NCBI GenBank assembly: GCA_004335835.1
Contig: RWJK01001013.1
Location: 16,314 to 80,313 of the forward strand
Origin: Scenedesmus sp. ARA3
Lineage: Eukaryota; Chlorophyta; Chlorophyceae; Sphaeropleales; Scenedesmaceae
Reading direction: 5' to 3'
DNA length: 64,000 nt
In this document: positions 9,044 through 19,318 of the stretch, in pieces
How positions within the stretch are numbered: the first letter of the stretch is position 1
How the letters are laid out: each line of letters opens with the position of its first letter
Program-made: the position numbers and the translations under genes
Notes under the pieces: generated by a model
Seen by the model: the letters and a program-made list of their open reading frames with translations, nothing else
What the model was told of the DNA's origin: nothing
Databases searched by the model: none

Positions 9044-12000
9044 TCACTGGCTGGCCGCCACCATTGCTGCCAGGTCCACCAGCCTGCAGGAGTAGCCCCA
9101 CTCGTTGTCGTACCAGGCGTAGATCTTCACCATGGTGCCGTCAATCACCTGAAGAAAAGACACACGGCGGCGCAGCAATGGCCGTCATGCTACAGGAGGG
9201 AGAGCCAATCCTGTGTAGAATTTCAATCAGTCTATCCTGAGCCAACGATCACGCTGTTGCAAAGCTAAGCTAGCTCTCAGCAGAATCAGCGCCTCAAGTC
9301 GTCACCACCGTTACAAACATAAGATGATCCTGGTCATCACCACACAAGACGTAGCAGCGGTGGCGCCGCCCACCTGTGTGCATGCCGCGTCCACGATGCC
9401 GCTCCTGCTGTCGTTCACGTAGTCAACGCTGACCAGCGGCCGCGTCTCATAGCCCAGGATGCCCGCCAGGTAGGTTTCTGATGCCTCCTGCAAGGGGCAG
9501 CGGTGCACATGATTTTACATATTTCGGTTATCATTTACTGTTGGGCGTACATATTCAGTTGTCCAAGGTTGATTTGGTATGAATCTGAACCTAGGCGTCT
9601 CGTAGCCCAGGATACCCGCCAGGTAGGTCTCCGACGCCTCCTGCAAGGGGTGGCGGTGCACATGCGTTTACAGATGTCGATAGTCAGTTACTTTTGGGCA
9701 TACATATTCAGTTGTCCAAGGTTGATTTGGTATGAATCTGAACCTAAGCGTCTCATAGCCCAGGATGCCCGCCAGGTAGGTCTCCGACGCCTCCTGCAGG
9801 CGGTGCACATGCTTCTACATATTTTGACACCCACGGCCTTCTTGGCGCACAAAATAGATTTACATATTCACGTCTTTTTATGCACACAAGTTACAATTCT
9901 CCTGTGACTTGACACATATTTGAATGTAGTCATAGACAACCATTACATTCTAAATATAGACTGTAGTCTAAGAAGTGTGTTACGTGTTTTACGGGGTACA
10001 TGGGTACATGTGGGTCATGACAACAGAACCATGAACGACAACCGTGAGCACACCCTTTGCTTTCCTGTCCCCACCCACCTTGAGCAGCGCATTGACCTCC
10101 TCTGCTGTTGTGGACTTCTTCACCTACGGAGCAGCAGCAGCAGCAGCAACAGCAGCAACAGCAGCAGCAGCAGCACTGAGCAGACAATCCAGCAGCCACG
10201 CAACGTCACAATGAAGCGGTGCCTGTCCTGTGCCTCTGCTGCTGGCACACAGCCATCAGCTGAAGTACACAAAATGACACACAAGAAACACAAATATGGC
10301 ACACAAGTGACACGGAGGATGCCCTGCACGTGGCGCTGAGGCGCAGCCTGCATCTCAAACGTGCAGTCCGTGATGCTGCCCACAAGTGCCGCGACAAACA
10401 GCAGCTGGCCAGCTAGCTGACAGCCTGCTGTTGCGGCAGCAGCAGCAGCAAGCCTAGCAGGGTGATGCAGCAGCTGCCGCACCTCAAACACGCAGTCCGT
10501 GCTGCTGTTGGTCAGCGGCACGCGCACAGCCCGCTGTTTGGGCAGCAGCAGGAGCAGCAGCAACAGCAGCAGCAAACCCAAGCCCCCCGCACCTCGAACA
10601 CGCAGTCTGTGATGCTGCTGTTGGTGAGCGGCACCCTGACAGCCAGGCCGTTGAGCTTGCCCTTCAGCTCAGGGAAGATGAGCGCGATGGCGGTGGCGCT
10701 GCCGGTGCTGGTGGGAGCCAGGTTCATCAGCGCGGACCTGCGGAGAAAAGCAGCAGAATAGCAGTGTCAGCGGCAGCAGGCACCATCTCCGCCTCTTGCA
10801 CCCATGTGTACAGCCCATGCCATCCCCACCAACACATGTGTGTCTCTGCCCTGTTCGCCCTGCGGCAGCATTCTTTGTTTTACTTGACAAACTAGCTCAG
10901 GGAAGATGAGCGCGATGGCGGTGGCGCTGCCGGTGCTGGTGGGGGCCAGGTTCATCAGCGCGGACCTGAGATAAAGATATAGCAGTGCAACAGCGTCAGC
11001 AGCGGCACACCCCACCTCTACACCTTGCACCCACGGCATCCCCACCAAAACAAGGTCCATCAGCGCTGACCTGGCCACACACATACACACACATACACCA
11101 CAAGCAGCAGCGCAGCAGTGTCAGCAATAGCAGGCGCTGCCGGTGCTGGTGGGGGCCAGGTTCATCAGCGCTGATCTGATCACACAACAGCGGCAGAGCA
11201 GCAGCGTCAGCGGCAGCATGAACCATCGCCATGCACCAAATAGGCGATGGCGGTGGCGCTGCCGGTGCTGGTGGGGGCCAGGTTCATCAGCGCTGATCAC
11301 ACAACAGCAGCAGAGCAGCAGCGTCAGCAGCGGCACGCTCCAACTTCACCCCTTAAGCCGGCGGGATGCCGGTGCTGGTGGTGGAAAGGTTCATCAGCGC
11401 AGACCTTCATTGCCCACACAAGTGATACACACATACACCACGAGCAGCTGTGCAGCAGTGTCAGCGGCGGCACGCACCATATGGTGTTGCCCACCGACCC
11501 TTTGCGCTGAACCTATTTCCATTGAAACATGTGTGCCTCTGCCGTGTTGTTCATTTGTAGCAGGGTACGTGTGTTTTGATGCACGTGACAAACACCAAGC
11601 AGAAATGCTGCAGTGCTTGAAGCAGGAGGGCCTGGGGATGGCCTCTGTCACTGCAGCACACAGGGGTCATGCCAGTGCCTCGCCTCAACTCTGGCTGCGA
11701 TTGACACGCAGTACCATAAGACCACCGACACAACAAGTAAACCGTGCTGTAACAGTCAAAAAAGGCACCCCAGAAAGACATCACAGCACACCTGGCGCGC
11801 CGCAGGTCGCTCTTCTTGGTGTTGGGTGCGTCGATGACGGTCTGCGTGTTGGTGAGGTTGTGGATGGTGGTGATGCAGCCGTGAGCAATGCCCAGCTGCT
11901 CGTGGATGACCTGGCAGCAGCAGCAGCAGCAGCAGCGCGGTTGCGGCAGCGCAATGGAGTGTACCCTCGCGCTCTACAGCTGACCGCCTGTCACTTGAAG

Positions 12001-19318: not shown

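Follow-up and report, generated by a model that had tools for sequence, protein, structure and literature searches.

The 64-kb stretch of DNA analysed here (the window; bases 16314-80313 of contig C712 in an 87.3-Mb assembly) very probably contains the arsenate-detoxification neighbourhood of green algae, PGK3-GAPDH3-ArsJ, in an alga that, by its protein matches, is Tetradesmus obliquus or very closely related to it. Three genes lie side by side: a PGK3-type phosphoglycerate kinase (PGK) on the forward strand (4045-7423), an ArsJ-associated GAPDH (GAPDH3) on the reverse strand (9044-13757) and an ArsJ-type MFS transporter gene on the forward strand (14128-19318). PGK and GAPDH converge, with 1.6 kb between them, and GAPDH and ArsJ diverge from a common 5′ flank that spans 370 bp between their start codons (13758-14127). 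The original prediction had described a divergent GAPDH/MFS pair separated by 370 bp, and both genes and the gap between them are borne out, as are the protein motifs that it quoted, which are present in the spliced models. Its ‘two-gene pathway’ is, however, a cluster of three genes, the PGK having been overlooked. The locus is mostly a new example, from a further genus, of an algal arsenate cluster that is already known.

The ArsJ-GAPDH3-PGK3 neighbourhood of green algae was reported by Foflonker and Blaby-Haas 2020 (PMC7826186), together with the arsenate sensitivity of Chlamydomonas mutants in arsJ (Cre07.g354150) and pgk3 (Cre07.g354250) and the suggestion that GAPDH and ArsJ were acquired from bacteria as one functional unit. 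The window resembles the cluster set out in that paper in that the same three families are adjacent in the same gene-number order, with a GAPDH3 distinct from GapA and GapC and a PGK that is non-canonical. CHLRE_07g354200, the Chlamydomonas GAPDH numbered between the arsJ and pgk3 genes, ranked ninth among our GAPDH matches. Where the present case departs from the cluster as given in PMC7826186 is in the existence of two diverged copies and in an ArsJ gene that lacks one exon as assembled. Cyanidiales arsJ, treated in PMC9812998, is likewise a eukaryotic ArsJ, which that paper describes as monophyletic with Viridiplantae and eukaryotic lineages; the same paper cites the green-algal cluster, but the Cyanidiales gene stands by itself. 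The earlier belief that no eukaryotic version had been described is therefore corrected by these two papers, the first of which adds mutant phenotypes in a green alga. Neither Tetradesmus nor Scenedesmus is named in the main text of PMC7826186. Within the open-access literature we found no algal report of a Scenedesmus ArsJ, GAPDH3 appeared together with ArsJ only in PMC7826186, and a search for PGK3 and arsenic in Chlamydomonas returned, beyond that paper, only work on redox regulation.

The GAPDH gene was modelled with nine exons encoding 346 aa, with all introns GT-AG and the reading frame unbroken. Its product carries the motifs SCTTNC and TTIH, which we take to be the sites of the catalytic Cys and His of GAPDH. 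Against NCBIfam NF033735 (‘ArsJ-associated GAPDH’) it scores 498.9 bits, above the curated cut-off of 450, and it is 91.9% identical to its relative P0121 and 73.3% identical to C. reinhardtii CHLRE_07g354200. A GAPDH tree was built from 124 rows: 67 arsJ-linked prokaryotic proteins (68 were found among the best 80 of 570 ArsJ loci, one of them too short to use), 30 bacterial proteins from a family search in 12 bacterial genomes, two further GAPDHs of the same algal genome and 25 GAPDH3 proteins. Ten of the 30 bacterial rows duplicate linked genes, nine being identical and one (L140) lying at zero distance. All 25 GAPDH3 rows fall in a single clade (SH-aLRT 98), nested in a group of 104 rows (support 100) that contains all 67 ArsJ-linked prokaryotic rows. 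The genome's other two GAPDHs, on contigs C1426 and C418, cluster with ordinary bacterial GAPDHs, apart from the window gene; from their place in the tree they are presumably GapA and GapC. Profile score and tree together bear out the predicted ArsJ-linked type, and a grouping of the window GAPDH with algal GapA or GapC, named in advance as the outcome that would speak against it, is not what the tree returns.

Searching the genome with PF00162 located PGK exons at C712:20409-23664, corresponding to 4096-7351 of the window. The spliced gene (Pfam PGK, E=6e-128) has seven exons (4045-4422, 4700-4840, 5307-5398, 5762-5933, 6218-6377, 6698-6886 and 7251-7423) and encodes 434 aa, of which 323 out of 336 aligned residues match P0241. 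It joins 13 algal or presumed-algal rows in the PGK tree (SH-aLRT 99), and the canonical PGK of the same genome (contig C751) falls elsewhere. Judged by its place in the tree, the window PGK is a member of a non-canonical subfamily, putatively PGK3 rather than PGK4 by the taxon ranges given in PMC7826186. Upstream of the PGK, a nucleoside diphosphate kinase gene is also visible on the forward strand at approximately 940-3284 (Pfam NDK E=1.5e-57, exons joined by eye).

PGK exon 5 (6218-6377) encodes the cysteine loop CCTPEAPC, an instance of a lineage-specific PGK3 loop, CC(S/T)x3PC, that sits just ahead of the LDIGP-bearing strand. Among the matches listed, CC-x4-PC is found in 11 of 120 PGKs, and all 11 are within the top 13 algal or presumed-algal rows; the two of these rows without it, P0242 and P0253, have an alignment gap exactly at the loop, which probably reflects a gap in their gene models. 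The pattern is absent from an algal-like fragment (P0264, 258 aa), from the other 106 listed PGKs and from the genome's own canonical PGK once its exons are chained. In the alignment, the algal loop exceeds that of most of the 33 non-algal rows by approximately 9-11 residues; a few of these (e.g. P0325) share part of the extra length, and none of the 33 has the loop cysteines. The AlphaFold model of P0243 (pLDDT 95.4) predicts the loop as coil at residues 306-322, with a local pLDDT of 84-88.

The sole NCBIfam match of the window transporter is NF033734 (MFS_ArsJ), with E=3.5e-88 and 296.4 bits, under the 400-bit equivalog cut-off. Four eukaryotic ArsJ relatives that were scored also stay below it, at 373-399 bits (T. 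obliquus P0001 at 373.3, P0002 at 376.1, C. reinhardtii P0016 at 380.0 and Saccoglossus P0023 at 399.2). Because of these scores, the window gene is filed with a eukaryotic ArsJ clade and not with the bacterial equivalog. The ArsJ tree holds 110 rows, 30 of them presumed eukaryotic (including six metagenome proteins) and 80 prokaryotic (the best 80 of 570), and a branch with support 100 splits the former from the latter. The window protein clusters with C. reinhardtii and other eukaryotic ArsJ, in a clade that includes green algae, Mesostigma, a red alga, a haptophyte and three acorn worms. Profile match and tree placement thus agree with the prediction of an ArsJ-family transporter, at a score under the NF033734 cut-off. 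The acorn worm proteins, from Saccoglossus, Ptychodera and Glandiceps (P0023, P0024 and P0036), lie inside the eukaryotic clade, and no report of a hemichordate ArsJ was found in the open-access literature.

Ten exons of the ArsJ gene are recognisable: five at 14128-14289, 14495-14601, 14839-15003, 15328-15417 and 16096-16231, and, after a gap, five more at 16675-16856, 17424-17613, 18053-18135, 18500-18688 and 19069-19318. One exon is absent as assembled, and BLAST blocks, a junction alignment, protein comparison and tblastn place its site at 16232-16674 on the forward strand. The model is identical to T. obliquus P0001 at 514 of 517 common residues and reads through stop-free outside the gap; P0001 residues 221-288 are skipped between the exon end at 16231 and the exon start at 16675. 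Since the first four of them, STLL, are still readable at the junction (match 16187-16255), approximately 64 residues are truly absent out of about 64-68 skipped. Exon 5 is without a canonical donor, and the remaining internal borders are GT-AG. A matching exon was not found by tblastn in the 64-kb window (best E 0.95 among the matches listed), and none was seen by eye in the six frames of 16225-16690. With a segment skipped, no canonical donor and no matching exon in the window, the ArsJ gene is incomplete as assembled, and the complete MFS core of eukaryotic ArsJ is lacking from it. The original prediction had not remarked on this gap. The absent segment covers 13 of the 80 columns that are invariant across 35 aligned ArsJ proteins; provided that the assembly is correct here, this copy may therefore lack function.

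A second, diverged GAPDH3-ArsJ(-PGK) copy is present in the same assembly on contigs C470 and C913, and it includes the exon that the window lacks (C470:5772-5939). Approximately 555 bp of the C470 copy are not present in the window between 16242 and 16298, and the flanking BLAST blocks are 610 bp apart in C470 and 55 bp apart in the window. By eye in the alignment, the junction at 16231-16298 seems to repeat a few bases of both sides, in the manner of short-homology deletions. C470 begins inside GAPDH3, whose nine exons are 91-100% identical to those of the window over the matched parts, without indels, the last being truncated by the contig end. Its ArsJ is again divergent from GAPDH3, across an intergenic region of 302 bp that can be aligned with the window's 370 bp over much of its length. 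ArsJ exons 1-7 on C470 show 79-96% identity; exon 1 carries a 1-base deletion relative to the window, and the exon absent from the window shifts frame near its end. Exons 8-10 had no match in the first 20 kb of C470, and in a genome-wide search the P0001 residues past 412 matched C712 only. Neither ArsJ copy in the assembly is whole. Contig C913 carries a PGK exon 1 belonging to the second copy (91%, no indels), approximately 300 bp short of the contig end, and C913 and C470 appear to belong together. Between the copies, identity is 74-93% in BLAST blocks that combine exons and introns and 79-100% in exons. The two other GAPDHs and the canonical PGK were each found at one locus at least, and, taken as single loci, they make the duplication look particular to the cluster or its region.

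The exon gap is explained by a deletion or an assembly error. We consider it about an even chance that the window ArsJ is to be read as either broken or misassembled, which is compatible with the locus being the arsenate neighbourhood. The segment of approximately 555 bp that is absent relative to C470, exon included, and the missing donor of exon 5 fit such a reading, as does the defective state of the second copy; the nearly identical P0001 has the exon, so a complete ArsJ exists in the species. The stop-free frame, the GT-AG borders and the close identity to P0001 argue for a gap in the assembly or a very recent deletion over an old pseudogene. Should the exon truly be lost, the locus would supply only GAPDH3 and PGK3, and any complete ArsJ would lie elsewhere.

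From the gene identities we infer the following chemistry for this alga. GAPDH3 would let arsenate replace phosphate on glyceraldehyde-3-phosphate, giving 1-arseno-3-phosphoglycerate (1As3PG), and ArsJ would move arsenic out of the cytosol, either as this ester or, after ester breakdown, as arsenate. PGK3 may recycle the 3-phosphoglycerate left by the breakdown, as proposed by Foflonker and Blaby-Haas (PMC7826186). The same cluster could also work by a somewhat different chemistry, in which 1As3PG is a short-lived store broken down in the cell and ArsJ exports free arsenate. This reading is compatible with the main one, and we hold it to be a little less than evenly probable. The companion idea, that PGK3 or another enzyme serves in release or in recycling of 3-phosphoglycerate and so replaces the bacterial phosphatase VarH, seems to us a serious candidate on the same slightly unfavourable terms. 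In Vibrio cholerae, according to PMC9601151, 1As3PG is not exported and free arsenate leaves via ArsJ after dissociation, and the algal cluster does have an additional 3-phosphoglycerate enzyme, PGK being present in none of the best 80 of 570 prokaryotic loci within flanks of up to 4 kb. Against this, the earliest work in bacteria, by Chen et al. 2016 according to PMC7826186, had the ester itself exported.

An explanation without arsenic is that these genes are a glycolysis-related cluster of GAPDH, PGK and a transporter for a central carbon metabolite, a possibility considered by the authors of PMC7826186 and in keeping with two of the three genes being glycolytic paralogues. We regard it as very improbable: the GAPDH lies in the ArsJ-linked clade, the transporter lies in ArsJ, the genome retains other GAPDHs and a canonical PGK, and the Chlamydomonas mutants described in PMC7826186 are sensitive to arsenate. 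The arsenate reading shares its chemical idea with the GAPC/OCT4 route of Pteris vittata, as recounted in PMC7826186; there, however, the transporter family is unrelated and the GAPDH is of the plant GAPC family.

Prokaryotic ArsJ loci differ in layout. Within the best 80 of 570 confirmed loci (one labelled as an archaeon; flanks of up to 4 kb), GAPDH lies 5′ of ArsJ and in the same direction in 68, and a divergent arrangement is seen in none; four of the 12 loci without GAPDH begin within 200 bp of the locus start. The contrast that had been drawn between a bacterial operon and a divergent algal pair is thus upheld. The bacterial gapdh-arsJ pair (NF033735 and NF033734) is akin to the window in having a GAPDH of the same family, at a score above the cut-off, and a related MFS transporter. 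It is unlike the window in being co-directional with GAPDH first and in having no PGK in its flanks (best 80 of 570), whereas the eukaryotic side has introns, divergent genes and an ArsJ that forms a long-branch clade below the equivalog cut-off. Within eukaryotes, gene numbers put the genes next to each other in Chlamydomonas, Micractinium (ABPG75_007395/007396), Edaphochlamys (HYH03_005367/005365) and Mesostigma (Mv16690/Mv16691); in Raphidocelis they appear to share a contig. By gene number or contig, the cluster genes are apart in, for example, Monoraphidium minutum (ArsJ away), Nannochloris, Myrmecia, Apatococcus and Pedinophyceae YPF-701.

The GAPDH3 clade includes Mesostigma and diatoms. 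Single eukaryotic clades of ArsJ and of GAPDH3, each spanning a wide range of taxa, indicate that the acquisition is old and not private to this alga. The suggestion that a green alga had taken up the genes as an event of its own is accordingly set aside, since the sampled eukaryotic ArsJ and GAPDH3 are each monophyletic with Mesostigma included. GAPDH3 and ArsJ probably came from bacteria long ago, and would since have become a divergent, intron-rich pair. A long branch (1.67) separates eukaryotic ArsJ from the whole set of 80 prokaryotic rows, and for this reason the tree names no bacterial donor.

The introns of the region contain partial copies of adjoining exon ends, at approximately 73-95% identity. 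These exon-fragment repeats occupy 9442-9822, 10666-11465, 15853-16134, 16771-17141, 17873-18078, 6312-6497 and 1832-2158, and they include a 93% identical copy of the 3′ end of PGK exon 5 in the next intron (6424-6497). A fragment of GAPDH exon 6 is found in up to five places, the exon itself counted. For GAPDH exons 6 and 8, one C470 stretch matches several window copies, and some of the duplications may therefore be recent. A link between the repeats and splice borders was considered and rejected. Over 4045-19318, where the repeats amount to 17% of the sequence, 9 of the 52 exon borders are touched by a repeat; 5000 circular shifts of that region gave 8.9 on average (P=0.57), so that no enrichment at exon borders is present in this permutation. 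Contact with exons themselves is equally unremarkable, with 8 of 26 touched against a mean of 6.5 (P=0.23).

The ArsJ protein has a cysteine-rich N-terminal domain, predicted to be all-beta, that precedes the transporter and is encoded by exons 1-2 (14128-14601). Among the 120 matches listed, the transporter start could be located by pattern in 41, and 20 of these 41 have the domain; three cysteines are conserved across 14 aligned examples. It is frequent in chlorophytes without being universal, being absent from the Raphidocelis, hemichordate, red-algal and Ostreococcus proteins. The AlphaFold model of P0001 gives the domain seven short strands at moderate confidence. A metallothionein-like reading of this N-terminus was dropped, because the pattern GLxCxF...VPA...C and the predicted strands resemble a small beta domain. 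For IPT/TIG, a candidate identity of the domain, Pfam TIG had no match to E=1 in the eight domain-bearing proteins among ten scanned, and the only sign of a relationship is that the domain profile weakly matches plexin-A2 (E=0.0085 over 33 positions). The domain also opens an annotated PGK of Scenedesmus sp. PABB004 (P0245, residues 1-80), where its junction with PGK may be genuine, as a fusion, or an artefact of the gene model.

One speculative hypothesis for the two cysteine features is that the PGK3 loop and the ArsJ domain are thiol sensors, binding arsenite or sensing redox, which would form a regulatory layer that the bacterial gapdh-arsJ pair lacks. We think this unlikely, although conceivable, and an arsenic-binding role of either feature is speculation. 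It is just as doubtful that such sensors could tie the formation of the ester to its export and to 3-phosphoglycerate recycling. The main text of PMC7826186 nowhere uses the word ‘cysteine’.

As it stands in the assembly, the ArsJ gene of this locus is unusable. The locus nevertheless adds a case from Scenedesmaceae, with a duplicated cluster, to the known algal arsenate route, and the trees mark the eukaryotic genes as an old acquisition and not a fresh uptake. The authors of PMC7826186 left the enzymatic role of PGK3 open, and the PGK3 loop and the ArsJ domain, if functional, would offer a way of approaching it.
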